In this document: one piece after another, positions 19,167-38,100 of the stretch | How the letters are laid out: every line of letters starts with the position of its first letter | Numbering within the stretch: the first letter of the stretch is position 1 | Source: an uncultured Mailhella sp. | Lineage (GTDB): Bacteria > Desulfobacterota > Desulfovibrionia > Desulfovibrionales > Desulfovibrionaceae | Direction: 5' to 3' | Assembly: GCF_947631555.1 (NCBI RefSeq) | Contig: NZ_CANRLT010000016.1 | Coordinates: forward strand, 1 to 39,451 | DNA: 39,451 nucleotides | Notes under the pieces: generated by a model | Databases searched by the model: none | What the model was told of the DNA's origin: nothing | Seen by the model: the letters and a program-made list of their open reading frames with translations, nothing else | Made by a program: the position numbers and the translations under genes

Positions 19167-19727
19167 GTGCAAAAGTTTTATCGAGTGCTGGCAGCCTGCG
19201 CTCTGGTGCTGATGTCCTGCCAGGCCGCATACGCGAGTTCGGAAGGGGGCATTCCCTGGGGCGACTTCCTGCTCCGTGTGCTCACGTTCGCGTGTTTTTT
19301 TGCCATTATCTGGAAATGCGCCGGCCTGCTCATCAAGGGCTTCTTCAAGAAGCGCCGCGCCGCCATCGTCCAGGAAATGGACGGCCTGGCCGCCCGCCGG
19401 GCTGAGGCTGAAGCCCGTCTTGCCGAGGTGGAAAGGCAGATCGCCGATGTGGAGACCGAATGCGCCCGTCTTCTTGAGGAAGGCCGCATTCAGGCCGAGC
19501 GCATGAAGGATGCCATTCTTGCCGATGCCGAGCGTCAGGCAGCCCGGATTGTGGAGCAGGCCGCCCATGTCGCCGAGCAGGAAGGCAAGGTGGAACTGGA
19601 GGCTATCCGCAGCAGGATGGCGGAATCTGTCGTTTCGGCGGTGGAGAAGACCCTTGCCGAAACGCTGGATGCCCGTGCCCATCAGAAGCTGATCGACCAA
19701 TCGTTGACCAAGGTGGTGCTGCAGTGA
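19167..19727 (+). CDS. atpF: ATP synthase F0 subunit b
   Basis: The second peripheral-stalk subunit, 186 aa from a GTG start preceded by GAGGAG. Unusually for a textbook b subunit it begins with a cleavable-looking signal sequence (KFYRVLAACALVLMSCQAAYA, ~3-23), whose LMSC resembles a lipobox. Then comes a second hydrophobic segment (~35-56, LLRVLTFACFFAIIWKCAGLLI), which is the real F0 anchor, and a long coiled-coil stalk (~60-180). Its stop overlaps the next start (GTGA), coupling it to the delta subunit. Confidence 0.92.
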   Translation: MQKFYRVLAACALVLMSCQAAYASSEGGIPWGDFLLRVLTFACFFAIIWKCAGLLIKGFFKKRRAAIVQEMDGLAARRAEAEARLAEVERQIADVETECARLLEEGRIQAERMKDAILADAERQAARIVEQAAHVAEQEGKVELEAIRSRMAESVVSAVEKTLAETLDARAHQKLIDQSLTKVVLQ

Positions 19728-20275
19728 TCGGCAATGTCGTGTCTCGCCGCTACGCGTCCGCGCTCTTTGCGCTGGGCAGGGACGCCGGCCTTGAAGAACT
19801 GGAACGGTGTGGAAACTCGCTGCGGGCTTTGGGCGAGGCTGTGGAAAAGACTCCGAAACTTGCGGAGGCTTTCAGCAATCCTGCCCTGTCCGCGGAGGAG
19901 AAGAAAAAAGTTGCGCTGGCCCTGCTGGATGTGGCGGGCGGCGGCGCTATGGAACGGCGTTTTTGCGCACTGCTGGCCGACAAGGGCCGGCTGGCGCTCC
20001 TGCCCGCCATCGCAGCGGACTATGACGTGATGCTGGACGGCGCCCGCGGCGTTTCCCGCGGCGTGGTCACTACGGCCATAGAGCTGGACGCTGAGCGCAG
20101 AGACGCCATCAGGCAGAAATTGGAATTGCAGACTGAGCGCAGGCTGGAGCTTGAGTACGTCATCGACCCTGCCATCATCGGAGGCATCGTCTTCCGGGTG
20201 GGAGATATGGTGTATGACGCAAGTCTGCGTGCGCAGCTCGATAACCTCAGGGAAGTCATCAAGAGGGGTGAGTAG
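19724..20275 (+). CDS. atpH: ATP synthase F1 subunit delta
   Basis: The OSCP-type subunit that joins the stator stalk to the top of the alpha3beta3 head. It is 183 aa from a GTG start (VIGNVVSRRYASALFALGRDAG) that overlaps the atpF stop by 4 nt. RRYASALF is the typical N-terminal family block. The C-terminal IDPAIIGGIVFRVGDMVYDASLRAQLDNLR (~147-176) is the conserved delta-family block. A further ATG is not needed given the overlap and the conserved N-terminus. Confidence 0.95.
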   Translation: MIGNVVSRRYASALFALGRDAGLEELERCGNSLRALGEAVEKTPKLAEAFSNPALSAEEKKKVALALLDVAGGGAMERRFCALLADKGRLALLPAIAADYDVMLDGARGVSRGVVTTAIELDAERRDAIRQKLELQTERRLELEYVIDPAIIGGIVFRVGDMVYDASLRAQLDNLREVIKRGE

Positions 20276-20278
20276 GCC

Positions 20279-21793
20279 ATGCACATCAAGGCTGAAGAGA
20301 TCGGAAAGATCATCGAGGAGCAGATCCGCAACTACGACCAGCATGTGGAAATGAGCGAAACCGGCACCGTCATCTATGTCGGCGACGGTATCGCCCGCGT
20401 CTATGGCGTGCGGAACGCCATGTCGATGGAACTGCTGGAATTTCCCGGCGGACTCATGGGCATGGTGCTCAACCTCGAAGAGGACAATGTCGGCGTCGCT
20501 CTGCTCGGCGACGATACCGGTATCAAGGAAGGCGATCCTGTCAAGCGCACGGGCCGCATCTTCTCCGTGCCGGTCGGCCCCGCGGTGGCCGGTCGAGTGC
20601 TGAACCCTCTGGGGCAGCCTCTCGACGGACTTGGCCCCGTGGAACGCGCGGAAATCCGTCCCGTGGAGCTGAAGGCTCCCGGCATCATGCAGCGCAAGAG
20701 CGTACACGAACCCATGGTCACGGGACTCAAGGCCATCGACGCCATCACGCCCATTGGCCGCGGCCAGCGTGAACTTATCATCGGCGACCGTCAGGTGGGC
20801 AAGACCGCCATCTGCGTGGACGCCATTCTGGCGCAGAAGGGCACGGGCGTACACTGCTTCTATGTGGCCATCGGCCAGAAGAAGTCCACCGTCGCGCTGG
20901 TGGCGGAAACTCTGCGCAAGTACGGGGCCATGGAGTACACCACCATCGTGTCCGCCTCCGCCTCCGAATCCGCACCGCTTCAGTACATCGCGCCCTATTC
21001 CGGCTGCACCATGGCCGAATACTACCGCGACAACGGAGAGCACGCGCTCATCATTTATGACGACCTGTCCAAGCAGGCCGTGGCCTATCGCCAGATGTCC
21101 CTGCTGCTCCGCCGTCCCCCGGGACGTGAAGCCTTCCCCGGCGACGTGTTCTACCTCCATTCCCGTCTGCTGGAACGCGCGGCCAAGCTGAGCGATGAAC
21201 TCGGCGCCGGTTCCCTGACGGCTCTGCCCGTCATCGAGACCCAGGCCGGCGACGTGTCGGCCTACATCCCGACGAACGTCATTTCCATTACGGACGGACA
21301 GGTCTTCCTTGAAACCAACCTGTTCAACGCCGGTATCCGTCCCGCCATCAACGTGGGTATCTCGGTATCCCGCGTGGGCGGCGCGGCCCAGATCAAGGCC
21401 ATGAAGCAGGTTGCCGGTTCGCTCCGTCTGGATCTTGCCCACTATCGTGAAATGGCCGCCTTTGCCCAGTTCGGCTCCGATCTGGACAAGGATACCAAGG
21501 CCATCCTCGATCGCGGCGCCCGCATGACGGAACTGCTCAAACAGCCCCAGTATCGCCCCATGCCCACCGAAGAGCAGGTGGCTTCCATCTTCTCCGCCTC
21601 CCGCGGCTTCCTGGACGATATCGAGGTGAGCGATGTGCTGCCGTTTGAAAGCGGCCTGCTGGAAATGCTTCGCAGCGAAAAGCCCGATATCCTCGCCGAT
21701 ATCCGCGACCGCAAGAAGCTGGATGATGATCTTGAAGCCCGTCTTTCCGCGGCCATCAACGAGTTCAAGGTATCCTTCAAGGCGCGGGGGTAA
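20279..21793 (+). CDS. atpA: ATP synthase F1 subunit alpha
   Basis: The non-catalytic nucleotide-binding subunit of the F1 head, 504 aa, the normal length. It starts [16 protein letters not shown], typical for alpha. The P-loop is [15 protein letters not shown] (~169-183), with Val in place of the common Thr in GDRQTGKT. The conserved [17 protein letters not shown] block lies at ~355-371. It is 3 nt from the delta stop and from the gamma start, within a tightly packed operon. Confidence 0.98.
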
Positions 21794-21796
21794 CTC

Positions 21797-22675
21797 ATGC
21801 CTTCGTTGAAAGATGTAAAACTCCAGATATCCGGCGTCGGCAAGACCAAGCAGATCACGAGGGCCATGGGCATGGTCGCCTCGGCGAAGCTGCGCGGCGC
21901 CCAGAACCGCATCGAACGTTTCCGGCCCTACGCGGAGAAGTTCAACGAGATGCTGGATTCTCTTTCCGGACGCACGGAAGAAGCGGCGCACCCGCTGCTC
22001 CAGGCGCACGGTCAGCCGAAGACGGCAGTCATCCTGCTGCTCACTTCTGATCGCGGCCTGTGCGGGGGCTTCAACATCAATCTGATTTCCGCGGCGCTCA
22101 GCCTGGCCAAATCCAGAGAGGAGGCGGGGCTGTCCGTCCGGTTCATCTGCGTGGGGAAAAAGGGCCGCGACGCCATACGCAAGACCCCTTACGAGATCAT
22201 GGAATCGTACGGGGATGTCATGGGTTCGTTCGATTTCACCCTGGCGGCACGTCTTGGCGGAAAGGTTTCCCAGCTCTACGCCGGATGCGATGCCGATGAA
22301 GTTTATCTGGTGTACAGCGAGTTTGCGAGCATGACGCGCCAGGTTCCCTCGACGATGGCGATTCTGCCCGTGACCGCCGCAGCCAGTGAGAAAAAGCAGG
22401 ACGGAGCGTCCGCCGAGTGCTTGTACGAGCCGGAAGCGGGCGCGCTGATGGCAGAATTTCTGCCGCGCTACGTCAATGTTCAGATCTACCGCGGACTTCT
22501 GGACAATGCCGCCAGCGAACATGCGGCGCGCATGGCTTCCATGGACAACGCCACGCGGAACTGTGATGAGCTGATCAACACCCTGACGCTGCTGTACAAC
22601 AAGACGCGTCAGGCCACCATTACCAACGAACTCATCGATATTGTTGGCGGCGCGAATGCGCAGCAAAGCCAGTAG
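21797..22675 (+). CDS. atpG: ATP synthase F1 subunit gamma
   Basis: The rotating central shaft of the F1 motor, 292 aa. The N-terminal helix MPSLKDVKLQISGVGKTKQITRAMGMVASAKLR is the canonical gamma block (ITRAM..VA..K). The C-terminal helix ends NKTRQATITNELIDIVGGANA, also canonical. It lies between alpha and beta with 3- and 12-nt spacers. Confidence 0.98.
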   Translation: MPSLKDVKLQISGVGKTKQITRAMGMVASAKLRGAQNRIERFRPYAEKFNEMLDSLSGRTEEAAHPLLQAHGQPKTAVILLLTSDRGLCGGFNINLISAALSLAKSREEAGLSVRFICVGKKGRDAIRKTPYEIMESYGDVMGSFDFTLAARLGGKVSQLYAGCDADEVYLVYSEFASMTRQVPSTMAILPVTAAASEKKQDGASAECLYEPEAGALMAEFLPRYVNVQIYRGLLDNAASEHAARMASMDNATRNCDELINTLTLLYNKTRQATITNELIDIVGGANAQQSQ

Positions 22676-22684
22676 GAGCATTAG

Positions 22685-24100
<1,416 letters not shown>

Positions 24101-24110
24101 GGAGACCGCC

Positions 24111-24512
24111 ATGGCAACCCTTCGTCTCGATATCGTCACTCCTGACCGGGTCGTGCTCGGTGCGGACGTGGACTATGTCGGCGCCGCTGGAGTGGACGGG
24201 CAGTTCGGCGTTTTGCCTGATCACTCACCGCTGCTTTCGGCTCTGAAGATCGGCGACCTCTACTACCGGCAGGGCGGTGAAGTAAAATGGGCCTTCGTGT
24301 CCGGCGGCTTCGCCGAAGTCTCGGAAAACAAGGTGACGGTGCTGGCCGAAGCCGCGGAACTGGCAGCCGACATTGATGTGGACAGAGCGGAACAGGCTAA
24401 GGCTCGTGCGGAAAAACGCCTCAAGGCTCCGGAACCTGATACCGATACGGCTCGTGCCGAGCTGGCGCTGACTCGTGCCATAGCCCGCCTCCGCGTGGCT
24501 GCACACCGCTAG
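24111..24512 (+). CDS. atpC: ATP synthase F1 subunit epsilon
   Basis: The regulatory central-stalk subunit, 133 aa. The N-terminal beta-sandwich ([45 protein letters not shown]) carries the family GVLPDHSPL motif. The C-terminal helical hairpin (~88-133, rich in Ala/Glu/Arg) can inhibit rotation. It starts 10 nt after atpD with GGGAGA upstream and is the last gene before the strong terminator. Confidence 0.97.
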
Positions 24513-24534: not shown

Positions 24535-24572
24535 AAGGGGAGACGTTCCAGGAACGTCTCCCCTTCGTTTTT
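24535..24572 (+). terminator. strong intrinsic terminator of the ATP synthase operon
   Basis: A 13-bp perfect stem, AAGGGGAGACGTT (24535-24547) with AACGTCTCCCCTT (24553-24565), closes over a 5-nt loop and is followed by CGTTTTT. It lies 22 nt after the epsilon stop and marks the end of the housekeeping region. Confidence 0.95.
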
Positions 24573-24655
24573 GGTAAACAGCCAAGGCATAAAAGAAGTT
24601 TTTTGGGGGGACAGCGGTAGTTCGTACAAAAAAACGACGTTCTCGCGCAAGGATT

Positions 24656-24678
24656 CATCGACAGTTATAATGTCAATG
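24656..24678. promoter_or_regulatory. palindromic site A1 (recombination site or operator)
   Basis: Left arm CATCGACA (one mismatch from CATTGACA), 7-nt asymmetric centre GTTATAA, right arm TGTCAATG. The centre is the reverse complement of that in site B1, so the pair is oppositely oriented. Arms around a 6-8-nt centre resemble tyrosine-recombinase core sites; an operator for the recombinase-like protein is the alternative. Confidence 0.65.
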
Positions 24679-24813
24679 AGTTGTTGGCATTTCTATCCTA
24701 AAAGGCCTTTTTTAGCAAGAGGTGCTCCAAGAAAAGTCAGCGCTGTTTTTCGGCATAAAAAATAAATTATAAATTCAACGTATTATATCGCTTTTTGGCG
24801 CTCATCCCGTGTT

Positions 24814-24836
24814 CATTGACATTATAACTGTCAATG
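24814..24836. promoter_or_regulatory. palindromic site B1 (recombination site or operator)
   Basis: Left arm CATTGACA, centre TTATAAC, right arm TGTCAATG. Apart from one base it is the exact reverse complement of site A1, from which it is separated by 135 bp. The ATTGTTGGCATT to its right is nearly the same as the sequence to the right of A1, so the flank is directly repeated while the centre is inverted. Confidence 0.65.
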
Positions 24837-24868
24837 AATTGTTGGCATTCTCCAGGCTGGATGGGCTT

Positions 24869-24994
24869 ATGGCACACAAAACCCGCGGCGTTCTTGCCGC
24901 CGAATCGAACATTACACGGAGTGAGGCTCCGCTGTTCTGCGACTTTGTCGAGGCGCGCTATCTGCCGTTCGTCCGGCAGAACAAACAAAACTGA
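24869..24994 (+). pseudogene. truncated 5' fragment of a tyrosine-recombinase-like gene
   Basis: A 41-codon frame (MAHKTRGVLAAESNITRSEAPLFCDFVEARYLPFVRQN) closely matches the first 38 residues of the intact gene at 28487-29389. It then diverges and stops after KQN. It contains only the beginning of the N-terminal core-binding domain and no catalytic domain, so it cannot act as a recombinase. It sits 25 nt upstream of the AlgI-like gene, where its translation might still help load ribosomes. It is a remnant of the duplication that produced the repeat. Confidence 0.85.
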
Positions 24995-25019: not shown

Positions 25020-26432
25020 ATGGTATTTTCATCCCCCTTGTTTCTTTCCCTTTTTCTGCCTGTACTCCTCCTGATTTATGCTTTGGCACAAACAGGTTAC
25101 AGAAATACCGTGCTTCTTCTGGCCAGCCTTCTTTTCTATTCCTGGGGAGAACCGAAGGCCCTTCTCGTCATGATCGGCCTTATTGCTGTCAATTACTATG
25201 CGGCGCTTCTCATGGATACGCCGAAAGTAAACGTTGTTTTTTCCCGGCGTGTACTCTTGTGGGCTGCCGTTATCCTTAACCTGTCAGCGTTGTTCTTTTA
25301 TAAATATCTTGATTTTGCCATTATCAATATCAATAAATTGATACCAATGTTTGGTATGCCGGAAATAGAGCTTTTTCATATTGCCCTTCCTATAGGCATT
25401 TCCTTTTACTGTTTTCAGGCCATGTCATATACCATAGACGTGTACCGCGGGGAAGTAGAGGCGCAGCACAGTCTTGCCAGACTCGCGCTTTACATTTCGC
25501 TTTTTCCGCAGCTGGTGGCAGGGCCCATAGTGCGCTACAGCACCATATGCAGCGAGCTGGAAGATCGCACCCTGCACTTCGATAATGTTTATGAGGGACT
25601 TGTTCGTTTTTCCATTGGTCTCGCCAAGAAGGTTTTCATCGCCGACTCCATGGGCTTTGTGGCGGACAAGATTTTTGTTGCCAACGTGTCCGCCATTCCT
25701 CAGCTCTGGGCGTGGATGGGCTGCATCGCCTACACTCTGCAAATTTATTACGACTTTTCGGCTTACTCCGATATGGCCATCGGGCTTGGCCGGATATTCA
25801 ATTTTCAATTCTTGGAAAACTTCAACTTCCCTTACTCTGCCCGCTCCATCAAGGATTTCTGGAGGCGCTGGCATATCTCTCTGTCATCGTGGCTTCGGGA
25901 TTATGTGTACATTCCTCTTGGGGGAAACCGCATATCCATCGTGCGCACGCTCGTCAATCAGTTCATAGTTTTCTTCCTCTGCGGCCTCTGGCATGGGGCG
26001 GCCTGGAATTTTGTAGTCTGGGGTATCTGGCATGGGCTGGGCCTGGTGTCGGAAAAGTTTACAGGACGGTATCTTGCCAGGCTTCCTGCACTTTTCGCCC
26101 ATGCCTATGTGATGCTTTTTGTCATGACAGGCTGGGTGTTCTTCCGTTCACCCGACCTTTCCTACGCCACAGCATATCTGAAAATTATGTTTCTGGGAAA
26201 TGCAGGATATGACATGTTTTCGTTTATTCCGGCATGGAGACACTGCATTACCATAAGCAACGGCTTCTTTATGCTTCTTGGCCTGCTTTTTTCCTGGCCG
26301 ATACGCATATTCTCTTTTCATACGCTTCAGCATCGGTATGGCGGAGTATTAACTTTGGCCGTCATTTTTTTCGTAACCTACTGTTTTGCTATGACAAGCA
26401 AATTCAGCCCCTTTCTTTATTTCAGGTTTTAA
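25020..26432 (+). CDS. AlgI-like membrane-bound O-acyltransferase (MBOAT)
   Basis: A polytopic inner-membrane acyltransferase that passes acyl groups, usually acetyl, across the membrane for modification of exported polysaccharide. The 470-aa product has about ten or more hydrophobic segments. MBOAT features: FPQLVAGPIVRYS (~161-173), DFWRRWHISLSSWLRDYVYIPLGG (~280-303) and the catalytic His block LCGLWHGAAWNFVVWGIWHG (~320-339). It forms a two-gene unit with the AlgJ-like gene starting 1 nt after its stop. Base composition is intermediate, lower in GC than the housekeeping core. The start has no strong ribosome-binding site. Algin itself is unlikely, since no alginate polymerisation genes are present. 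Confidence 0.92.
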   Translation: MVFSSPLFLSLFLPVLLLIYALAQTGYRNTVLLLASLLFYSWGEPKALLVMIGLIAVNYYAALLMDTPKVNVVFSRRVLLWAAVILNLSALFFYKYLDFAIININKLIPMFGMPEIELFHIALPIGISFYCFQAMSYTIDVYRGEVEAQHSLARLALYISLFPQLVAGPIVRYSTICSELEDRTLHFDNVYEGLVRFSIGLAKKVFIADSMGFVADKIFVANVSAIPQLWAWMGCIAYTLQIYYDFSAYSDMAIGLGRIFNFQFLENFNFPYSARSIKDFWRRWHISLSSWLRDYVYIPLGGNRISIVRTLVNQFIVFFLCGLWHGAAWNFVVWGIWHGLGLVSEKFTGRYLARLPALFAHAYVMLFVMTGWVFFRSPDLSYATAYLKIMFLGNAGYDMFSFIPAWRHCITISNGFFMLLGLLFSWPIRIFSFHTLQHRYGGVLTLAVIFFVTYCFAMTSKFSPFLYFRF

Positions 26433-26433
26433 A

Positions 26434-27906
26434 ATGAAAAAAGTAAAGTTTTTCTTTATTCTTCTGGTGGCTGGACTCATGATTATTCCATGGTTTAATT
26501 TGCCAGATGTCCACCTGGCCGGACATGAAGCAGAAATTTCTAAACCTTCTTTTTCTCTGCGGGCTTATGCTAATGGCAATTTTCAGAAGCAATTTGCCAC
26601 ATGGTGGAATAGATATTTTGGCTCGCGCGGCAGCATGTTAACTGTGAAAAACGATGTTTATGACATGCTGAATTTTGGTCAGTTTCATTCAGGGTATGGA
26701 GGTAATATCCTTCAAGGAAGATATGGAGTAATCTATGAATCTCAGTATATTTTAAATAAGTTTTCTCCTTATAATGCAGATGATGTTCTAAAAAATGCAA
26801 CAGAAACTGTCATGTTGTTGGCTAAGCTACGCGATAGACTTGAGGCCATGGGGAAATTTTTTCTCTTCGTCATGGCTCCAAGCAAGGCAGATGCCCGGTG
26901 CGACGCGTTGCCCTGGCTTTGGCAGTTCCGAGCGAGGCATAGCCAGGTACCGCCCAGCATGTACTCTTTATGGGAAAAGGAACTTGCCAGAAAGAATATC
27001 ATTTATGTCAATGCACTTGACCTCCTGAAGAAAAAAAATATTCTGAAAGATTCTTTTCCAGATACCGGAACTCACTGGTCCATGCTAGCTGCTGGCCTAA
27101 CTTTGGAAGAAGGAGTAAAAAGATTAAACTATGCAGGAGCAAATTTTCAGCCGATTATTATCAAAGGAGAGAAAATTTTGAATAAAGATTATGCTGAAGA
27201 GCGTGATATAGCCGATCTATTGAATATTAAACCAAAATATCATAAAGGGATGTCAACATGGAAATATGCTGTATATCAGTCTATCTCAGCTGAATTATCA
27301 ATAAATACTTTTTGCTTTGGGGATTCTTTTTCACAACAAATCAAAAAAAATATAGTTCAATTAGGATTTTCGACTTTAGATACTGCTGCAATCATTATGA
27401 ATCGTATACCGACAAAAGAAGAATGGTTTCAAAAACTGAATAAAACAGATTTGTTGATTCTGACCTATACATATACAAAATTAAATTCCTATCGAATAAA
27501 ACGCGAAGTAGAAACGTTATTGAATTATACTGATGATTTTATTCTTAGAAATTGGCATCCTTACGAAAAATCTGGAAAGGGACAATGGAGCAAGTATCAC
27601 TCCAGTATGGAATTTTTTCATAATGCAAAAAACGATTGTACCTTTTCTTTTATGATTAAAAATAAATTTCGTGCAAAAGAATTATGTCTTTTTATAAATA
27701 AAAACAAAATATCTCAAATATCGTTAAATACATTGTCATGTCCTCAAAAAATAATTGTAACCATTCCTCAGCACCTGCTCCGTGTCGGCCTGAACCGTCT
27801 GGAATTTTTTTCAAACGGAGCGGTAAGTCCCAAATCCATCTCCCCAGACAGTGCTGATTCAAGAGTTCTCGGTGTTTTTTGTTCTGATTTCAAAATAGAC
27901 AGGTAA
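26434..27906 (+). CDS. AlgJ/AlgX-like SGNH-type O-acetyltransferase
   Basis: A 490-aa partner of the MBOAT protein that would place the acyl group on the polysaccharide in the periplasm. The N-terminus is a signal anchor (KKVKFFFILLVAGLMIIPWF). Catalytic-type motifs are TGTHWS (His ~214) and FGDSFS (nucleophile-like Ser ~298). In AlgJ/AlgX I would expect Asp two residues before the His (D-T-H-W). Here that residue is Gly and an Asp sits four before, so the triad is altered or arranged differently. The C-terminal ~110 residues (beta-rich) may be a carbohydrate-binding module. The gene is strikingly AT-rich in its middle (27100-27760) but GC-rich again at its 3' end, indicating recent transfer or recombination. 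Confidence 0.85.
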   Translation: MKKVKFFFILLVAGLMIIPWFNLPDVHLAGHEAEISKPSFSLRAYANGNFQKQFATWWNRYFGSRGSMLTVKNDVYDMLNFGQFHSGYGGNILQGRYGVIYESQYILNKFSPYNADDVLKNATETVMLLAKLRDRLEAMGKFFLFVMAPSKADARCDALPWLWQFRARHSQVPPSMYSLWEKELARKNIIYVNALDLLKKKNILKDSFPDTGTHWSMLAAGLTLEEGVKRLNYAGANFQPIIIKGEKILNKDYAEERDIADLLNIKPKYHKGMSTWKYAVYQSISAELSINTFCFGDSFSQQIKKNIVQLGFSTLDTAAIIMNRIPTKEEWFQKLNKTDLLILTYTYTKLNSYRIKREVETLLNYTDDFILRNWHPYEKSGKGQWSKYHSSMEFFHNAKNDCTFSFMIKNKFRAKELCLFINKNKISQISLNTLSCPQKIIVTIPQHLLRVGLNRLEFFSNGAVSPKSISPDSADSRVLGVFCSDFKIDR

Positions 27907-28237: not shown

Positions 28238-28275
28238 AGTTCGTGCAAAAAAATAGCTGCCGCAGCACAAGGATT

Positions 28276-28298
28276 CATTGACAGTTATAATGTCAATG
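28276..28298. promoter_or_regulatory. palindromic site A2 (recombination site or operator)
   Basis: Left arm CATTGACA, centre GTTATAA, right arm TGTCAATG, with perfect 8-bp arms. It is the exact reverse complement of site B2. In this copy the pair is perfect, whereas copy 1 has one arm mismatch. Confidence 0.65.
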
Positions 28299-28433
28299 AG
28301 TTGTTGGCATTTCTATCCTAAAAGGCCTTTTTTAGCAAGAGGTGCTCCAAGAAAAGTCAGCGCTGTTTTTTGGCATAAAAAATATATTATAAATTCGAAG
28401 TGTTATATCGATTTTTGGCGCTCATTCCGTGTT

Positions 28434-28456
28434 CATTGACATTATAACTGTCAATG
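28434..28456. promoter_or_regulatory. palindromic site B2 (recombination site or operator)
   Basis: Left arm CATTGACA, centre TTATAAC, right arm TGTCAATG; again 135 bp from its partner A2. It ends 30 nt before the recombinase-like start codon, so a bound protein or an inversion here would directly affect expression of that gene and the operon behind it. The enclosed DNA is AT-rich, with -10-like TATAAA at 28388-28393 but no convincing -35. Confidence 0.65.
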
Positions 28457-28486
28457 AGTTGGGTATTCTCTAGGCGGGATGGGCTC

Positions 28487-29389
28487 ATGGCATACAAAAC
28501 CCGCGGTGATCTTGCCGCCGCATCGAACATTACACGGAGTGAGGCTCCGCTGCTCTGCGACTTTGTCGAGGAGCGCTATCTGCCGTTCGTCCGGCAGAAC
28601 AAGCGGAGCTGGAAGGTGGATCAGGGCAACCTGGAACGGCATGTGCTGCCGTATCTTGGCTCGTACCGGCTGCCCGACATCACCGCGGGCACGCTTCTGG
28701 CATGGATCGATGCACTTGAACAGAGCGGGCTTTCGTACAGCACCTGTTTCCGTCAGTTCTGGCTGGCCAAGTATGTGCTGAACTGCGCCGTACACTGGGG
28801 TGTGCTGGCCAGTGACGCGGCTTTCAAGTCTGCCGGCATGCCCGCCAGACCGGGCCGCAGCCCTGTGCTGCTGGAACTTCCTGAGCTCGTCAGGCTCTTC
28901 GATATCCTCAAGAAGTATCCGTACTGGGCTTCAGCCAACGCCATCCGTCTGATGCTGCTCACGGGAGCCGGCAAGTCCGAGGTGCTCGGCGCCCGCTGGG
29001 AAGACGTGGACCTTGCCCGCGGCGTCCTGGCCGTGCCCGCAAACTTTACCGGACGGCGGCGGCTGATCCCGCTGAACAACGAAGCGCAGAAGTTTCTTGA
29101 GAAGCTGCCGCGGTACAAGGGCGTGCCGTGGCTGTTCACGACAAGCAGCGGGACGCGCCTCACCTACATCACCCGCGACTGGTACCAGATACGCGACGAG
29201 TTCGGGCATCCTGAACTTCGCCTCCAGGATCTGCGTCATACCTTCGCAAACGTCCTGGTGAGCATGGGCGTCAGTCAGAGCGAACTGCGTACGCTCCTCG
29301 GCCACTACAAACCGGGGGCACTGGAGCTGGCGCGCGAGGTTCAGCGCGGAGAATGTTTTCATAAGCGGTTCAAGGAAAACAGAGCATGA
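28487..29389 (+). CDS. tyrosine-recombinase-like protein lacking catalytic residues
   Basis: A 300-aa protein with the full integrase layout. The N-terminal SAM-like core-binding domain runs over ~18-115 (DFVEERYLPFVRQNKRSWKVDQ onward) and the C-terminal catalytic fold over ~125-290. In the expected motifs, however, TG-x-R reads TGAGKSE (Arg to Gly), the beta-hairpin Lys position reads ANFTGRRR, H-x-x-R-H reads QDLRHTFA (His to Gln), and nine residues after LLGH the nucleophile Tyr position is Ala. Only the second Arg and the LGH His remain. Strand exchange is therefore unlikely, but DNA binding is plausible. The ATG at 28487 was chosen because similarity with copy 1 is in frame only from about there; an ATG at 28454 lies inside site B2. 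The stop overlaps the next gene by ATGA, so it is the first gene of the glycan operon. Confidence 0.88.
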   Translation: MAYKTRGDLAAASNITRSEAPLLCDFVEERYLPFVRQNKRSWKVDQGNLERHVLPYLGSYRLPDITAGTLLAWIDALEQSGLSYSTCFRQFWLAKYVLNCAVHWGVLASDAAFKSAGMPARPGRSPVLLELPELVRLFDILKKYPYWASANAIRLMLLTGAGKSEVLGARWEDVDLARGVLAVPANFTGRRRLIPLNNEAQKFLEKLPRYKGVPWLFTTSSGTRLTYITRDWYQIRDEFGHPELRLQDLRHTFANVLVSMGVSQSELRTLLGHYKPGALELAREVQRGECFHKRFKENRA

Positions 29390-30903
29390 AAGTCATCATT
29401 CAAGCCGGCGGGCTGGGCTCCCGCATGAACGAACTGACACGGAACAAGCCCAAGGGTCTGATTCCCATACAGTATCGTCCCATTCTCTTTCATCTGTTTC
29501 AGAAATGGCCGGGCGAGGAGTTCATCATCATCGCCGATTACAAGTTCGACGTGATCGACCGCTATCTTTCCACCTTTGCCAGAAACGTGAACTATGTGCT
29601 GATCAAGGCGGAACGCAAGGGCAATGCCGCGGCGCTGAAGCAAGCCGCCGCGCTCATCCCCGAACAGGAGCCGTTCATCGTCATCTGGTCTGACCTGATT
29701 CTGGCGGACAGCTTCGAGATTCCCGCTGTGAAACCCGGCTGCACGGTGGGCGTGGCCTCGTTCCCCTGCTCCTGGAGCCTGAAGGACGGCAGACTTGTCC
29801 GCGAACAGCATGAGGGCAAGGGCGTGGCCGGACTGTACGTCTTTTCCGACAGGCGCTTTCTGCAGGAGGTGCCGGAGGAAGGTTCCTTTACCAGGTGGCT
29901 TGCCCAGGCGGGCATTCCTCTGCACGAACTGCCCATCGAGGCCAGCGATGTGGGTACGCATGCCGCCTATGACAGGCTGAACATCAGCGAGAACCGCTGC
30001 CGCCCCTACAACCGGATAGAGATACAGGGCGACAGGGTCGTCAAAACCGGCCTCACGGACGAGGCGCGGAAGCTCATCGACAGGGAAATCCGCTGGTACG
30101 GCAAGGTTTCCTCCTACGGCTTCACCGCCGTTCCCAGACTGTATTCCGAGAAGCCGCTAGTTCTGGAGCGGATACTGGGCGACAACATCTTTCATTCATC
30201 CCTTTCAGACAGCGAGAAGAAAGCGGCCATCGACCGCCTGACCGCCGCGCTGGACACACTGCACCGCTATGACTCCATTCCCGCCGACGCCTGGGACATC
30301 TACAGAGAATACTTCGCCAAAACGCTTGAGCGGCTGCGGAGCATACAGGATGTTCTGCCCTTCGCCTCCGAGGAAACTATCGTCATCAACGGCACGCCCT
30401 GCCTCAACGTACTCAGGAAGCCGCATATCCTGCGCAAGGCCGTCATGAACCATCTGCTGACGGAAAAATTCGTGCCCATCCACGGCGACTGTACCCTCAC
30501 GAACACGCTTATCGATGACAAGGGCGAGATCTTCTTCATCGACGCGCGCGGCTACTTCGGCAAGTCCGAGGTGCTCGGCGATGAATACTACGACTGGGTG
30601 AAGCTCTACTACTCCATCAACGCCAACTTCGACCAGTTCAATATCAAGAATTTCTCCCTCGCCATCGATCATGACCATGTGTTCTACGAGATCCACAGCG
30701 GCGGCTGGGAACATCTGACCGACTATTTCCTTTCCAGAATACCGAACGCCGATGTTTCAAGGATCAAGCTCATCCATGCCATAGTCTGGCTTTCTCTGGC
30801 TTCCCACTGCTGGGAGGACTACGACTCCATGTGTCTGGCCTTCTACAACGGTACGGCGCTCTTCCACGAATGGCGCGAGGAGTTCGGCAATGTCCGGAAC
30901 TGA
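29386..30903 (+). CDS. bifunctional sugar nucleotidyltransferase - APH-type kinase
   Basis: A 505-aa two-domain protein. Residues 1-~215 are a nucleotidyltransferase fold (AGGLGSRMNELTRNKPKGLIPI at ~7-28, with Asp in WSDLI ~103). Residues ~225-505 are an aminoglycoside/choline-kinase-like fold, with the catalytic loop IHGDCTLTNTLID (~365-377) and the metal-binding FFIDARG (~383-389). It probably phosphorylates a sugar or small alcohol and activates it as an NDP derivative for a capsule or LPS. Substrate and nucleotide are unknown. It starts within the recombinase-like stop codon (ATGA) and is followed by an overlapping HAD gene, so these genes act as one pathway. GC content is high, like the core genome. 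Confidence 0.88.
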   Translation: MKVIIQAGGLGSRMNELTRNKPKGLIPIQYRPILFHLFQKWPGEEFIIIADYKFDVIDRYLSTFARNVNYVLIKAERKGNAAALKQAAALIPEQEPFIVIWSDLILADSFEIPAVKPGCTVGVASFPCSWSLKDGRLVREQHEGKGVAGLYVFSDRRFLQEVPEEGSFTRWLAQAGIPLHELPIEASDVGTHAAYDRLNISENRCRPYNRIEIQGDRVVKTGLTDEARKLIDREIRWYGKVSSYGFTAVPRLYSEKPLVLERILGDNIFHSSLSDSEKKAAIDRLTAALDTLHRYDSIPADAWDIYREYFAKTLERLRSIQDVLPFASEETIVINGTPCLNVLRKPHILRKAVMNHLLTEKFVPIHGDCTLTNTLIDDKGEIFFIDARGYFGKSEVLGDEYYDWVKLYYSINANFDQFNIKNFSLAIDHDHVFYEIHSGGWEHLTDYFLSRIPNADVSRIKLIHAIVWLSLASHCWEDYDSMCLAFYNGTALFHEWREEFGNVRN

Positions 30904-31270
30904 ACTGCGGCTCTCTCCCCTCGCCCACACCTGGCTCTTCGATTTCGACGGCACGCTGGTCGTGCACAACGGCTACAAGAGCGGCCGCGACGAATGGCTG
31001 CCAGGGGCGCTGGAATTTCTCAAGTCACTTCCCGAAGGCGACACCGTGATCATCCTCACGGCGCGGGAACGGGCCGCCCGTGAAAAGACCGAAGCCTTTC
31101 TGCGCAGCTATGGCGTGCGCTACGACCATCTTTTTTTCGAGATCCCCGTGGGGGAACGGATACTGCTCAACGACTGCAAGCCCTCCGGCCTGCCCTGCGC
31201 CTACGCCGTCCGCCCCGTAAGAAATCAGGGACTCGCCCATCTTTCCCTCGTCATCGATGAGAATCTTTAG
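30890..31270 (+). CDS. HAD-superfamily phosphatase-like protein
   Basis: A small 126-aa protein with HAD motif I WLFDFDGTLVVHNG (nucleophile Asp ~18, second Asp ~20) and motif II VIILTARE (~53-60). A C-terminal NDCKPSGL (~94-101) may supply motifs III/IV. There is no cap domain, so it resembles compact HAD phosphatases found in sugar-nucleotide clusters. It overlaps the nucleotidyltransferase-kinase by 14 nt, with GAGGAG upstream of its ATG, indicating coupled translation. The likely role is dephosphorylation of a sugar-phosphate intermediate; the substrate is unknown. Confidence 0.82.
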   Translation: MSGTELRLSPLAHTWLFDFDGTLVVHNGYKSGRDEWLPGALEFLKSLPEGDTVIILTARERAAREKTEAFLRSYGVRYDHLFFEIPVGERILLNDCKPSGLPCAYAVRPVRNQGLAHLSLVIDENL

Positions 31271-31279
31271 GAGAACGTC

Positions 31280-32170
31280 ATGCAGATACTGAAGCCCATA
31301 GTGCATGAAACCATCTGGGGAGGCTCATTGCTGACCCCGTACTCGGGCAGCGGCTGCACCAGCATAGGGCACCTGTATTCCGCCATCGACACGGCGGAAT
31401 TCAACAACGTCATTGCCGGCGGCAGCTATGCGGGCCGGACGCTCCATGAGTGGTTTGCCGGGAACAAGGCGCGCTTCGGCCTTGAACGCTATACGGAGCT
31501 GCCCATACTCATGGCCCTTGTGGAAGCCCGCCAGAACCTCTCCATCCAGGTACACCCGAACGACGCCATGGCCCGCAGCCTGGAAGGCCTGCCCTTTGGC
31601 AAGAACGAATCCTTCTACACGCTCAAGGCCCCGGCCTGCGGCAGGATGTACAACGGCTGCAAGGCGTCTTCCGTGGAAGAGATGCGGGAAAGGATCGCCG
31701 CGGGCCGCATCGCCGAGACTCTGGACATGATGCCCTGCGCGGCGGGCGACTATGTGTACGTCACCGGCGGCACGCTTCATGCCGCGACAGCGGGCAGCCT
31801 GCACTTCGAGATCGAGGAAAACTGCGAAAAGACCTACCGCTTCTACGATTTCGACCGTGTGGACAAAAACGGTCAGAAGCGCCCCCTACAGCTGGAAAAG
31901 GCGCTGGCCTGCCTTGAGGTCTCGCAGAAGTCCGTCTCCCGCAGGTACGATGGCGGTCCCATTGAAGAGCGCATGTACGCAACGCAGCTCATCCAGCATC
32001 AGAGCCGCTTTGTCAACGAACGTGACATGTTTGCCTTTGCCGTGCTGCTGCGCGGGGAGAAATCCGTCCTCGGCATTTCCGTCCTGCCCGGCACGGCCGT
32101 GCTGCTGGAACCTGGTGAGGCGCTCGATGTCTCCGGCTGCGATGTCATGATCGCCTGGCCCAAACGCTGA
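31280..32170 (+). CDS. class I mannose-6-phosphate isomerase family protein
   Basis: A 296-aa cupin metalloenzyme of the ManA family, which interconverts aldose- and ketose-6-phosphates such as mannose-6-P and fructose-6-P. Seen: the N-terminal ETIWGGSLL, the metal-ligand block LSIQVHPND (~90-98), GKNESFYTL (~109-117, ligand Glu), GDYVYVTGGTLHA (~155-167, ligand His) and EIEENCEKTYRFYDF. AGGAG lies 7 nt before the ATG. Being embedded in a glycan operon next to an epimerase, it may act on a dedicated intermediate and not in central mannose metabolism. Confidence 0.9.
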   Translation: MQILKPIVHETIWGGSLLTPYSGSGCTSIGHLYSAIDTAEFNNVIAGGSYAGRTLHEWFAGNKARFGLERYTELPILMALVEARQNLSIQVHPNDAMARSLEGLPFGKNESFYTLKAPACGRMYNGCKASSVEEMRERIAAGRIAETLDMMPCAAGDYVYVTGGTLHAATAGSLHFEIEENCEKTYRFYDFDRVDKNGQKRPLQLEKALACLEVSQKSVSRRYDGGPIEERMYATQLIQHQSRFVNERDMFAFAVLLRGEKSVLGISVLPGTAVLLEPGEALDVSGCDVMIAWPKR

Positions 32171-32195: not shown

Positions 32196-32834
32196 ATGTC
32201 CTTTTTGCTTTCTCCTTCGCTGATGTGCGCCGACCTCGGAAGGCTGAGGGAAGAAATTTTGTCCCTCGAAGCCGCGGGGGCGGACAGCTACCACATCGAC
32301 ATCATGGACGGGGAATTCGTGCCCAACTTCGCCCTTTCCTGGGCGGATGCCGCCGCCGTGCGCAAACTGACGAAACGCCCTCTCGAAGTCCACCTTATGG
32401 TGAAAAATCCCCTGCTGCACCTTCCGTACGCCTTTGCCTGCGGCGTGGACATTATCTTCATTCACTTAGAATCCGGCAGCTTTGCCGAGTGTGTGCGGCG
32501 CATCAGGGCGGAAGGCCGGGAAGCGGGCATGGTGCTGAACCCGGAAACGCCTCTGGAAGAAGCGGAAGACTTCCTGGACGAGGTGGACAGGGTCATGCTC
32601 ATGCGGGTGAAGCCCGGCTTTGCCGGACAGTCCGCCGTGCCGGGGATAGAAGAGAGAATCGCCGCCTTTGCCGCCAGACGGGGACAGGGCGTCCTCTGTC
32701 TGGACGGCAACGTCGGGCCGGACGTGGTGAAGAAATGGAAGGCGCAGGGCGTTGGCTCCTTTGTGCTGGGCACCTCCGCCCTTTTCGGCAAGCAAAAACT
32801 CTACGCTGAACTTATGGCAGACCTGCGGCAGTAG
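32196..32834 (+). CDS. ribulose-phosphate/allulose-6-phosphate 3-epimerase family protein
   Basis: A 212-aa TIM-barrel ketose-phosphate 3-epimerase. Metal and catalytic residues are present: HIDIMDGEFVPNF (~33-45), EVHLMV (~64-69) and LDG (~168-170). Several blocks differ from housekeeping Rpe: MRVKPGFAGQ for the common MSVNPGFGGQ, LDGNVG for VDGGI, and a C-terminal FVLGTSALFG. From memory these look closer to allulose-6-P 3-epimerase (AlsE: PGFAGQ, VGTSGLF) than to Rpe. This suggests a hexulose-phosphate substrate, but the assignment rests on a few motifs. It follows the isomerase by 25 nt. Confidence 0.87.
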   Translation: MSFLLSPSLMCADLGRLREEILSLEAAGADSYHIDIMDGEFVPNFALSWADAAAVRKLTKRPLEVHLMVKNPLLHLPYAFACGVDIIFIHLESGSFAECVRRIRAEGREAGMVLNPETPLEEAEDFLDEVDRVMLMRVKPGFAGQSAVPGIEERIAAFAARRGQGVLCLDGNVGPDVVKKWKAQGVGSFVLGTSALFGKQKLYAELMADLRQ

Positions 32835-32846
32835 AAGGAGAAAATA

Positions 32847-35126
32847 ATGCACTACAATTACCAAGATGGACATTATCCGGCTAAAGCTCCTCATTATCAA
32901 ACTTTGGCCAAAATCCGCGAAGAAATAAAAAAACTGTGCTATAAAGATTGTTATAATCTTATTTTACATAAGCATCTAGGCGATAATTTTTATCTTATTT
33001 TGGCAAGAAAAAAATTTGAAGAAATTTATGGAGCTAAACTTCATTTTATTATTCGGCCTCAGCATGAGTTTCTCATGAAATTTTTTAATATTGTCGATTA
33101 TGACATTTATGATCTTGATTCATTTGTCAATAAAAATAATGACTTGAAAGAATGTTTTTTGGGAACTCCCGATGTGCAGCATCAAAATCCAGACTGGCTG
33201 CACAATGAAGTATTTCTTTCAATTTTTCCAGGTATACCAGTTATAGGAGAGCCATTCGTCTGCGTTAATGTATTTCACTGGTTTATTATGTATGCTAATT
33301 ACTGGTGTTATATTTGGCCATGTTCCTTGGGTTTGGACACAGATTACCTTTTTTCCGTACCGAACCCCCCTAGAGGTCTTTCCATACAAGTAAAGAAAAA
33401 ACTTGCCTCCATCGCCCCTCTTAACAAAATCGTGCTTTTCGCCCCGGAAGCGGCCACGACTATTGAAATTCCCGTGCAGTTCTGGAACATCATTGCGGAG
33501 CATGTCCACGCGCAGGGCTATACCGTCCTTGTCAATTCCCAGAAGTACCGTCTGGCGCACGGTATTTCCGCCTTTGACCTCGGACTGTCCCTGGAAGACG
33601 TGGTGGCGCTGGGGCTTTCCTGCGCCGGCGTGTTCGGTCTCCGTTCCGGCCTTTGCGATGTGCTTGTGGGCGCAGGTGATCGGCTTTTTGTAGTATATCC
33701 CTCCGAGCTGCGCAGGGAAATGGGCAGCCTGAACGTCCCCTTCGCCTTTCCCACGGGCGTCCATGAGATCCTTCTCCACAACTGGCAGATCACTGGCAAC
33801 ATCGTGTGGGAAGGGAAGGACTTGACCCCAGCACTGCAAAAACAGGTGAAGGCGTGGCATCGATGGTATCTCAAGGAGAAGTGGCAGGCTTTCTTTTCTG
33901 TTAACAAGTCCAGCAAGCAACATCATCGTTTCTGGAAACGCATATGGGAACAGTGTGGCGGTCAGGCAAAACATTTTCCTGTTGCCAATAAAAATATTCT
34001 CTTTCGCCCAGAACCGGAAAAAATAACGTTTGGCCCATTTCCCATCTATGAGCGAAGCTATGTTTCCGACCGCGTCAAGACCTCCGTTCTGGGTGGGCTT
34101 TTGCACAAGGTGCGGCATAACGACCGTTCCTGCCGTCTGCACCTTTTCGGTCTCTGCGTCTATTCGCGGCGCTTTACACTCTTCAGGACGACCCGGGTGC
34201 TCGGCGTCACCATCCAGAAAAAGCCGTGGCGGGACAGGCTGATTGAAGAATTTACCCGTCAGCTCGAGCCGGCGCGGCACAAGGTCTATCTTTTACCCTA
34301 TCACATCGGCGAAACCTATGTCTTTCTCGCCCATGCGGAAAGCTGGCTCAAGGGAGACCATGGAGACATACAGGTGGCGGTGTGGCAGAAAAATCAGCTG
34401 CCCCTGTACCGGATGTTTCTTCCAGCGGATATTCCCCTGGTCAGCATCTCGATGGGATACGGGCAGCAGTGCGCTCTCTTTGGCAGCGAGCCGGTGACGG
34501 CGGGCGAGTTCACCGTCTTTTCCGCCGATGCGCATATTGACAGGACGCTTCTGGCCGGGCTGCGCAACACGGGTTCCGGCGACTTCTACGCGCATATCAA
34601 GGCCGTGCTTCAGGCCGGAGACCAGCTGCCCCGTCCGCCTCGCATTGCGCCGGCCATAAAAAGCATGGTGGACGACGTACTCGACGGATTCGGCATGAAG
34701 CCGCGCTTTGCCGTGCTCCTGCCGGAGGCAAACTGTTCGATGCCGCTTGCCGAAGAATTCTGGCAGAAGCTGGCTCACGGCCTTCAGCGGAAGGGCTATG
34801 GCGTCATCGTCAACGGCAGCCTCGCGCTGGACGGCGCAAAGACCTGCAAACTGCCCATAGACGCTTTCTACGAGCTGGCGTCCCGTTCCGCAGGCATGGT
34901 GTCCCTGGCTTCCGGCATGGCCGTGCTTCTTTCCGCCACACGGGTGAAGATGGACGTCCTCTATACCGCTTTCAAGAAAAAATTTCCTGGCTATACGTCG
35001 TCCGTGGCACTTGCCTGCTATTCCCTGCGGCATATCGAAGGCGTCTTACCGGAAACCGTCAGGGAATGGGACACGGACGAATTCTCTCTCGACAGCATAC
35101 AGGAAAACATCCTGGCCCGGTACTGA
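32847..35126 (+). CDS. tandem (double) GT-B glycosyltransferase-like protein
   Basis: A 759-aa protein built from two similar halves. The first (~40-330) has HKHLGDNFYLILARKKF near its start and later VLFAPEA...FWNIIAEHVHAQGYTVLVNS, then AGVFGLRSGLCDVL. The second (~450-745) has PYHIGETYVFLAHAESW and later AVLLPEANCSMPLAEEFWQKLAHGLQRKGYGVIVNG, then AGMVSLASGMAVLL. The paired LGD/IGE and FW...L....KGY.V.VN blocks recall heptosyltransferase-like (GT9-type) folds. An intervening segment (~395-450, FGPFPIYERSYVSDRV...LHLFGLCVYSRRF) links them. The first ~180 codons are AT-rich and the rest GC-rich, meeting near a C6 tract (33365-33370). The donor sugar is unknown. AAGGAG lies 7 nt before the start. 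Confidence 0.8.
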   Translation: MHYNYQDGHYPAKAPHYQTLAKIREEIKKLCYKDCYNLILHKHLGDNFYLILARKKFEEIYGAKLHFIIRPQHEFLMKFFNIVDYDIYDLDSFVNKNNDLKECFLGTPDVQHQNPDWLHNEVFLSIFPGIPVIGEPFVCVNVFHWFIMYANYWCYIWPCSLGLDTDYLFSVPNPPRGLSIQVKKKLASIAPLNKIVLFAPEAATTIEIPVQFWNIIAEHVHAQGYTVLVNSQKYRLAHGISAFDLGLSLEDVVALGLSCAGVFGLRSGLCDVLVGAGDRLFVVYPSELRREMGSLNVPFAFPTGVHEILLHNWQITGNIVWEGKDLTPALQKQVKAWHRWYLKEKWQAFFSVNKSSKQHHRFWKRIWEQCGGQAKHFPVANKNILFRPEPEKITFGPFPIYERSYVSDRVKTSVLGGLLHKVRHNDRSCRLHLFGLCVYSRRFTLFRTTRVLGVTIQKKPWRDRLIEEFTRQLEPARHKVYLLPYHIGETYVFLAHAESWLKGDHGDIQVAVWQKNQLPLYRMFLPADIPLVSISMGYGQQCALFGSEPVTAGEFTVFSADAHIDRTLLAGLRNTGSGDFYAHIKAVLQAGDQLPRPPRIAPAIKSMVDDVLDGFGMKPRFAVLLPEANCSMPLAEEFWQKLAHGLQRKGYGVIVNGSLALDGAKTCKLPIDAFYELASRSAGMVSLASGMAVLLSATRVKMDVLYTAFKKKFPGYTSSVALACYSLRHIEGVLPETVREWDTDEFSLDSIQENILARY

Positions 35127-35182: not shown

Positions 35183-38100
35183 ATGGGTCTTGACGATATG
35201 CCCAGAATGGACGAGCTGGAAAAGCTGGCCGCGTTTATCGGCTGCGACAAGCCGTATATCTACGGCGATAGTGTTGCCAGCAGGATGATAGGCAAATATT
35301 TGGAACAGGCGTCCGTTAAAGTGAACGGCTTTATTGTGCCTCAGGCAGATGAAGGACAAAAGGAGGATGGCAGCATTCCTGTTCTTTCCATTCAGGAGGC
35401 CGAAAGGCACAGGCAGAAAGAACGGGTGAAGGTCATCCTTGCCGCCGGAACTATGACCGGCGAGGCATTTTCCGTCCTGCGCAAGGTGGGGATAGAGGAC
35501 ATCTTTGTCGTCAGCGAATGGAACACGCAGGCGATTATCAAAAAGATGTCTCCGAAAACGGCTGAAAAATTCGATCTGGAAGTAAATCTGGCTGACCATT
35601 GCAATTTAAACTGCCAATGCTGTGACCATTTTGCTCCTCTTGCCGAAAAGAACTTTATTGACTATGACAGCTATGCCAAAGATATAGATAAATTATCGCA
35701 ACTTCAAAAGAATATAAACAGTATAACATTACTTGGAGGAGAGCCACTATTAAATAATAAGTGTATAGATTATTTTAAAATTACAAGAAAGTATTTTCCA
35801 GATACCAATATTATTCTGTTCACAAATGGCCTGCTGTTGCCAAAATGGTCAAGCTACAGCGATGACAAAAATATATGGCTGGCGATTAAAAAGTATGATG
35901 TGCAGATTAATTTGACACGTTATCCCATACCTCAAAAACTTGATATGATTACAGAGCAAGCAAAAAAACACGATATTCCCATAGTTTTTGAACAACCTTC
36001 AACAAAAGGTGCAAAACTTTGGATATTATTGGAATATGGAAACCTGAAAGCTCATAAAAAAACATCCACAAAACATCCGTTTGACGTAAGCGGATCCGTG
36101 GAAAAATACAGATTTATACACTGTTATCATTTCAATAAGTGTTTAACCTTGAGAAATGGGAAGATATATACCTGCCCTATTATTCCAAACTCTCAGTGGT
36201 ATAACAAAAAATTTAACCAACATCTTGAAGTAACTGAAAATTGCTCTATTGACCTGCATAGGGCGCAGTCGTTTGAGGAAATCACTGAATTCCTGACACA
36301 CAGACCTTCGTTCTGCGATTATTGTGCTGTGCATAAAAGATATGCCATGCCGTGGAAACAATCGCGGGGGGGGGCAGATGAGTGGACATTGCTTCTGACG
36401 GAGGAAAAAAACATGGCTGTCACGATTACCGACATGAAACGCTGTACAGGATGCGCGGCCTGCGCCAACGCCTGTCCTCGCGCCGCCATCACCATGCGGG
36501 AAAACGAGGAAGGCTTCTATAAACCTGTTATCGATGAAAAACTATGCGTGCAGTGTCGGATCTGTGAGAAAACCTGCCCGCAGAACCATGCGCATGATCA
36601 AAACAACCCTGTCCCGCCGTGTTTTGCCTTTATGGCGGAAGACTCCATCCGGCTGAAAAGCTCTTCCGGCGGCGCCTTCGGCATCCTCGCACGGGAATTT
36701 CTGCGCCGCGGCGGTGTGGTTGTGGGCGCGGCCTTTGCTGAACACTGGCAGGTTCGCCACATTATCGCAGAAACGGAAGCTGAACTGGAAAAACTGCGCA
36801 GCTCCAAATATGTCCAGAGCTTTATTTCTGAAACGCTCCTGAAAAACGTCAGGGCTCTTCTTGAAAAAGGCGTTCCTGTCCTCTTTTCCGGTGTTCCCTG
36901 CCAGGTCGCCGGGCTGCTCAATTATTTAACCAGGGACTACGACAACCTCTGCACCGTGGATCTGCTCTGTGCCTATGCTCCCAGCCCGAAGGCCTGGCGG
37001 CAGTACCTTGAGGAGAACTACGCCGATATTCCGCTGGCAGCCATAAATATGCGAGACAAAACTGTCTATGGATGGGCGTGCTCGCATATCACATTCACTG
37101 AAACTTGCGGTTCTATCGTTTCCGACAAGAAATATATGACGCCATTTTTAGAGAGGACACTTAAAGGCTCGCAATGCGCACATTGTGCCTATAAAAGATT
37201 GCCGCGCCCCGGGGATTTTACCATAGGCGACTTTTGGCGCATCCAGCAGTTTGCGCCGGACTGCGATGACAGAAAGGGCACAAGCGGGATACTGCTGAAC
37301 AACAAAAAAGCTGAACTGTTGTTTGAGAGCCTGACTGACGGCATAAAACTGAAAAAAGCCATGCCCCTCCATGCGCTTGCCTGGCAGCTTGGCCAGGAAC
37401 CTCAGCGCCTGCCGGCATGCCTGGATTTTTTCAAGCACATCAATGACAAACCCTTCAACGTCAACAGCAGAGAGGCGCAGAAAAATACCAGAGTCGGAAT
37501 CACAAACTGGTGGTATGTCAATAATAGAGGCGCAATCCTCACAAATTATGCGCTTAATGAAATGGTCAATTCCCTTGGCTATAACGCTTTAACCATAAAT
37601 TATATATCTCCGCACGATAGAGATAAATTTTTCCATAAAGGATATGCTAAGAAATTTGCAGATACCTATATAAAAAGAACGCGCTGGCTGGAGAATCGTG
37701 CTGATTTGAAATTGTTAAACAACGATATTAAGACTTTTATTGTCGGTTCTGATCAAATTTTTAACTATGTTCTATGCAAGCTTGATGGAAAACGATTCTA
37801 TGGCTGGTGGGTGGATGCCAAAAACAATAAACTGATATCGTATGCGGCAAGTTTTTGCAATGATTATTTCCATGCCACTGAAGCGCAGAAAAATCTTGTC
37901 AGGCATTTTCTCAAGCGCTTCGACTATCACTCCATCAGAGAGGTTGAAGGCGTCGAACTTATGAAGAACACCTTCGGTCTCGATGCGAAGTTTATTCTTG
38001 ACCCGGTCTTCTGTATTGATAAAAACAAGTATCTGAACATAGCAGAAAAGGCTACCGATAAACCTGATGAAGATTTCATCGCCTATTATATAACACTGCC

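Follow-up and report, generated by a model that had tools for sequence, protein, structure and literature searches.

In Bacteroides fragilis, the CPS loci place many polysaccharide operons behind invertible promoters, Mpi acts on these in trans, and upxY and upxZ come first (PMC12632263). The arrangement that we describe here, from an uncultured Mailhella species of the Desulfovibrionaceae, resembles the B. fragilis CPS loci in that multiple glycan operons lie behind predicted invertible segments, a putative regulator gene comes first, and a candidate recombinase is encoded in trans. It differs from them in that a dead tyrosine recombinase takes the leading position, in place of UpxY or UpxZ, and in that the host belongs to another phylum; furthermore, and unlike the Mpi-type serine recombination of Bacteroides, the sites in this species fit a tyrosine recombinase. 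That is, the layout is already known from Bacteroides, and the operon-leading dead recombinase is the new player. Tyrosine recombinases also control promoter inversion at the fim switch (FimB and FimE), but unlike the Mailhella protein these enzymes are catalytic, and we know of no dead paralogue that leads an operon in such systems. A literature search, which was not exhaustive, found no paper on inversions in Mailhella or on glycan operons headed by a dead recombinase.

Can a recombinase that has lost its chemistry become a regulator? MrpR (YopR), the master repressor of Bacillus phage SPbeta, has a tyrosine-recombinase fold in which Arg-I and His-II are replaced (by V/S and by N), has lost recombination, and acts as a DNA-binding repressor (PMC10516654); it is thus a precedent for the fold as a regulator, whereas the earlier note knew of no described operon regulator of this kind. 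Judged by fold and description, the Mailhella protein is like MrpR in having this fold without Arg-I and His-II; unlike the Mailhella protein, MrpR retains both Lys and Tyr and serves a phage as its repressor, and no invertible segment is described in front of its gene. A protein of this fold can, then, turn into a repressor, and the Mailhella protein is most likely a regulator. Its nearest catalytic relatives are the C75-type recombinases of the Desulfovibrionaceae, candidate invertases next to CATYGACA site pairs with the same half-sites as the window's elements; unlike the dead gene, C75 is intact, and the gene that follows it encodes a chemoreceptor and does not belong to a glycan operon.

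The gene in question lies at positions 28487 to 29389 on the forward strand of the window, by which we mean the whole stretch of 39,451 nucleotides that was analyzed, and encodes 300 amino acids. The frame is intact and overlaps the next open reading frame (29386 to 30903) by ATGA, as the earlier note had reported; starting from an alternative ATG in the same frame, at 28454, would lengthen the protein by 11 residues, but the paralogues favor the start at 28487. Its GC content is 61.2%, compared to 57.1% for the window and 57 to 61% for the next four genes. The protein has both domains of the two-domain integrase fold (core binding and catalytic): Pfam finds PF00589 (E = 9e-14) and PF14659, the N-terminal SAM-like domain, and among its families only integrases and recombinases match, with no hit to PF00239 (the serine, Mpi-type invertase domain) and none to the NusG-like (UpxY) or UpxZ families. 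An AlphaFold2 model with 21 family members as input has a mean pLDDT of 85.9, and the top solved-structure matches of this predicted model in Foldseek include lambda Int (1z19; TM, 0.70 to 0.76), Tn1549 Int, and XerH. Alignment with catalytic relatives confirms all four active-site substitutions that had been proposed from the sequence: Arg-I is Gly162 (TGARKSE to TGAGKSE), the beta-hairpin Lys of LSKSG is Phe187/Thr188, His-II is Gln247, and the nucleophile Tyr is Ala282. The Arg-Lys-His-Arg-(His/Trp)-Tyr set is therefore incomplete: of its six residues, only Arg-II (250) and the LGH His (273) remain.

The genome to which the window belongs (G000; 2.58 Mb) carries five full-length copies of the dead gene, namely, the window copy and four others (on C59, C1, C40, and C17; 70 to 74% identical). 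In addition, four contig ends hold partial copies, and a remnant of 41 codons lies in the window. The clade is present in nine Mailhella genomes, and at the threshold used it was found nowhere outside Mailhella in 247 genomes drawn from the Desulfovibrionaceae. Arg-I, Lys, His-II, and Tyr are missing in 21 of 21 aligned members, so that none of these homologues has an intact catalytic set; Arg-II is kept in all 21 and the LGH His in most. By alignment, no Tyr nucleophile is found elsewhere (the C17 copy has a Tyr one position off and still lacks Arg-I, Lys, and His-II), and the dead proteins of G016 stop soon after the LGH box. In a tree, the dead copies group together on a single branch (100/100), and their neighbors are intact recombinases from the Desulfovibrionaceae. 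The core-binding and catalytic domains are conserved alike (0.70 versus 0.66), and dN/dS is mostly between 0.1 and 0.5 (0.10 to 0.47 across paralogues and species; 0.52 for one near-identical pair, a value that rests on very few changes). On sequence grounds, active-site loss extends across the clade and the dead recombinases are under purifying selection; catalysis appears to have been lost once, in an invertase-like lineage, giving a clade that in our sample is confined to Mailhella. The single origin, the clade-wide residue pattern, and the dN/dS values together rule out an isolated decaying integrase, and the earlier view of a noncatalytic gene under selection holds. A phage origin was also rejected: the annotated phage integrases that were found are only ~25% identical.

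The dead gene heads a run of polysaccharide genes, as the earlier note had proposed, all on the forward strand. It is followed by a nucleotidyltransferase fused to an APH-like kinase (29386 to 30903; Pfam), a HAD-type phosphatase-like gene (30890 to 31270; a weak match below the Pfam cutoff), a type I phosphomannose isomerase-like gene (31280 to 32170; Pfam), a member of the ribulose-phosphate 3-epimerase family (32196 to 32834), a 759-residue protein without a Pfam match (32847 to 35126), and a 1,280-residue fusion of radical SAM, 4Fe-4S (ferredoxin), FrhB/FdhB, and polysaccharide pyruvyl transferase domains (35183 to 39025; Pfam). At loci with readable downstream sequence, dead genes are likewise followed by polysaccharide, nucleotide-sugar, or export genes, including nucleotidyltransferases, UDP-galactopyranose mutase, ManC, phosphomannomutase, glycosyltransferases (families 2, 8, and 9), GDP-mannose dehydratase, UDP-glucose dehydrogenase, and ABC-2 exporters.

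Just upstream of the dead gene lie two inverted recombination sites of 25 bp, with starts 158 bp apart. The left site (TCATTGACAGTTATAATGTCAATGA; 28275 to 28299) has 8-bp arms and a 7-bp asymmetric core, GTTATAA; in the right site (28433 to 28457), the core is reversed (TTATAAC). Between them is the interior of the predicted invertible segment (28300 to 28432), and the GC content of the whole predicted element is 33.9%, versus 57% for the window. The earlier note had seen palindromes here and had read them as sites for a DNA-binding protein; they do lie there, 30 to 212 bp before the ATG, but plain operators are an insufficient description of inverted pairs with locus-matched cores and of unrelated sites in other species. 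Instead, a short segment with such a site at either end, placed before an operon, is the arrangement of an inverton. The site pattern has 20 matches per strand in G000 and a control pattern has none, and it is therefore not due to chance. Inverted sites with opposed cores also occur at the other G000 dead-gene loci that have upstream sequence, with locus-specific cores common to both sites of a locus (GATAAAA in C59, GATAGAG in C1, and GATATAG in C17). Across dead genes, an inverted pair lies upstream of 22 of 25 at strict settings and of 24 of 25 with one mismatch allowed, which adds G007:C53 and G018; for control open reading frames the figure is at most 28 of 667, with the dead genes still counted among the 667. 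The exception, in G011, has no inverted pair and instead a long CTTC run before the dead gene (L091, upstream of 6107), possibly a case of slipped-strand phase variation. Site sequences differ in other Mailhella species (AAAAAGT-GT-ACTTTTT, GTGTACC..., and CAGAAGATATGA), and a common operator is thus not established.

Do these segments invert? Interiors are reverse-complemented between paralogous loci in G016 (C9 versus C12, C4, and C22) and in G007 (C53 versus C140), and in G008 one locus has an interior that is reverse-complemented relative to three others. Judging from these comparisons, both orientations exist across paralogous loci of three related genomes; for the window's own two elements, both orientations were not seen. 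A third-site rearrangement in G000 is also apparent, in that C59 has the spacer and outer site of C1 and C17 in inverted form, on the side that faces the gene. We infer that the segment carries the operon promoter. In sigma-70 scoring, the invertible segments mostly did not outscore their shuffles; an extended -10 pointing to the gene is present in G016:C9 and G8a. By eye, the serine-type loci appear to share an ACTGACA box, which lies downstream of a putative -10.

In total, we propose a model, to which we assign a probability of roughly 60%, in which a domesticated, noncatalytic invertase serves as a DNA-binding regulator of phase-variable glycan operons whose segments are flipped in trans. 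An invertase-like tyrosine recombinase would have lost catalysis once and been recruited as the first gene of surface-glycan operons. The segment of ~130 to 230 bp between inverted sites just upstream would be flipped in trans by an intact recombinase, of the tyrosine type in the window's species and of the serine type in several relatives, and its orientation probably decides whether the dead gene, together with the glycan genes behind it, is transcribed. The dead protein would then be made only with the operon on and is probably a DNA-binding regulator; DNA binding, regulation, and the sign and target of that regulation are the parts that we deduce rather than observe. In the window's species, it most plausibly recognizes the CATTGACA half-sites used by its catalytic cousins, and it may autoregulate the promoter and/or modulate inversion. 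More tentatively, we speculate that the dead paralogues could provide locus-specific feedback, each binding at its own switch, to the sites or to an operator, after the operon has been turned on, and thereby maintaining that state and/or keeping the other glycan switches off. If so, a regulator would have evolved from a switching enzyme and been kept after that enzyme was replaced by one of an unrelated class. The proposed system would be a Bacteroides-type, multilocus, phase-variable surface-glycan system in a gut lineage of another phylum. Moreover, one dead clade with both tyrosine-type and serine-type switches is a natural series in which to ask what a recombinase fold does after catalysis and how bacteria coordinate many polysaccharide switches.

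Could the dead protein instead act on inversion, competing or mixing with the catalytic invertase at the sites and thereby biasing its own switch without affecting transcription? We consider this doubtful. A core of 7 bp, as in the window's species, is consistent with a tyrosine recombinase. In favor of a modulator of inversion, the intact C75 recombinase of G000 (complete R-K-H-R-H-Y) has the half-sites of the glycan loci paired just downstream of it, the dead clade descends from the C75-type lineage, and the core common to both sites of a locus is locus specific. The C75 locus itself (L047, 1937 to 5115) comprises the recombinase gene, the site pair (3107/3268), and a chemoreceptor (MCP) gene, possibly a phase-variable chemoreceptor. 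All 20 catalytic relatives checked, most of them from other Desulfovibrionaceae genera, keep R-H-R-H-Y, and ~8 of the 20 have, within the fetched locus, a CATYGACA-type inverted pair with sites ~130 to 165 bp apart; the intact tyrosine recombinases at L181 to L198, from other genera of the Desulfovibrionaceae and several with such pairs nearby, make up a candidate invertase family. The alignment gave essentially no specificity residues exclusive to the dead proteins of the window's genome plus this catalytic family. Against a modulator of inversion, G016, G018, G010, and G007 retain the dead gene though their sites have a 2-bp centre, as expected for serine invertases (AAAAAGT-GT-ACTTTTT in the first three). 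In G016, G018, and G010, a serine recombinase gene lies beside such a pair, which precedes an autotransporter gene (L093, 5042 to 5197 of G016:C2; L094; and L096), and the G016 pair there has the same sites as the G016 glycan elements; that recombinase weakly matches the Mpi family model. The dead-gene element of G001, like that of G014, has a serine recombinase gene directly before it, and PF00239 is found in the neighboring genes of both groups of genomes. PF00589 and family searches found no close catalytic cousin in G016. Based on position and site type, we suggest that C75-type or serine recombinases act on the glycan-locus sites. The dead gene accompanies two unrelated kinds of switch, which makes it less likely to be an obligatory component of the inversion machinery and favors a function within the operon; and given that it is retained with different sites and another recombinase class, binding to the exact sites seen in the window is not its conserved function.

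A counterpart of UpxY or UpxZ, that is, an elongation or cross-locus factor acting in trans to give one glycan operon precedence, seems unlikely. As in the Bacteroides CPS loci (PMC12632263), the gene is the first behind an invertible promoter, here a predicted one, and there are many paralogues per genome; in G016 and in G008, one of four loci is in the minority orientation, and that one has a TGCTAT extended -10 facing the gene. Nonetheless, counts of one in four are too few to mean anything, assemblies are a consensus, and the protein has no sequence likeness to NusG-type factors. Less credible still is a functionless remnant that recombination has copied together with the invertible cassette. 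The C termini do vary, the second window copy is truncated, G010:C5 looks decayed, and many copies lie at contig ends; such a passenger is hard to reconcile with dN/dS values that, among paralogues and between species, are for the most part well below 1, and with full-length frames in most copies from nine genomes. An active recombinase with other catalytic residues is very unlikely: Arg-II is retained in all members and the LGH His in most, but the four other residues are lost in 21 of 21 cases, and the G016 proteins end shortly after the LGH box.

Returning to the regulator that we favor, the truncated copy bears on where it acts. A second predicted invertible element lies upstream in the window, with a left site (24653 to 24679) whose core is GTTATAA, as in the first, and a right site (24813 to 24839); the remnant (24869 to 24994, forward strand) runs for 41 codons to a TGA and precedes, on the same strand, an MBOAT O-acyltransferase (25020 to 26432; Pfam) and an AlgX-like (SGNH) acetyltransferase (26434 to 27906; Pfam). 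This element retains its operon despite the truncation, and the dead protein is thus not strictly needed in cis. Farther upstream are F1 ATP synthase genes (19724 to 24512; alpha and beta confirmed by Pfam), and a terminator-like hairpin (24535 to 24565) lies between them and the second element. Further inverted pairs of the same type occur without a dead gene in G000 (L073, L074, L075, L076, L077, and L078, on C5, C8, C48, C78, and C79); these lie near a GT61, an FkbM methyltransferase, and genes without a Pfam match, and the C79 pair lies beside a Xer-like recombinase.
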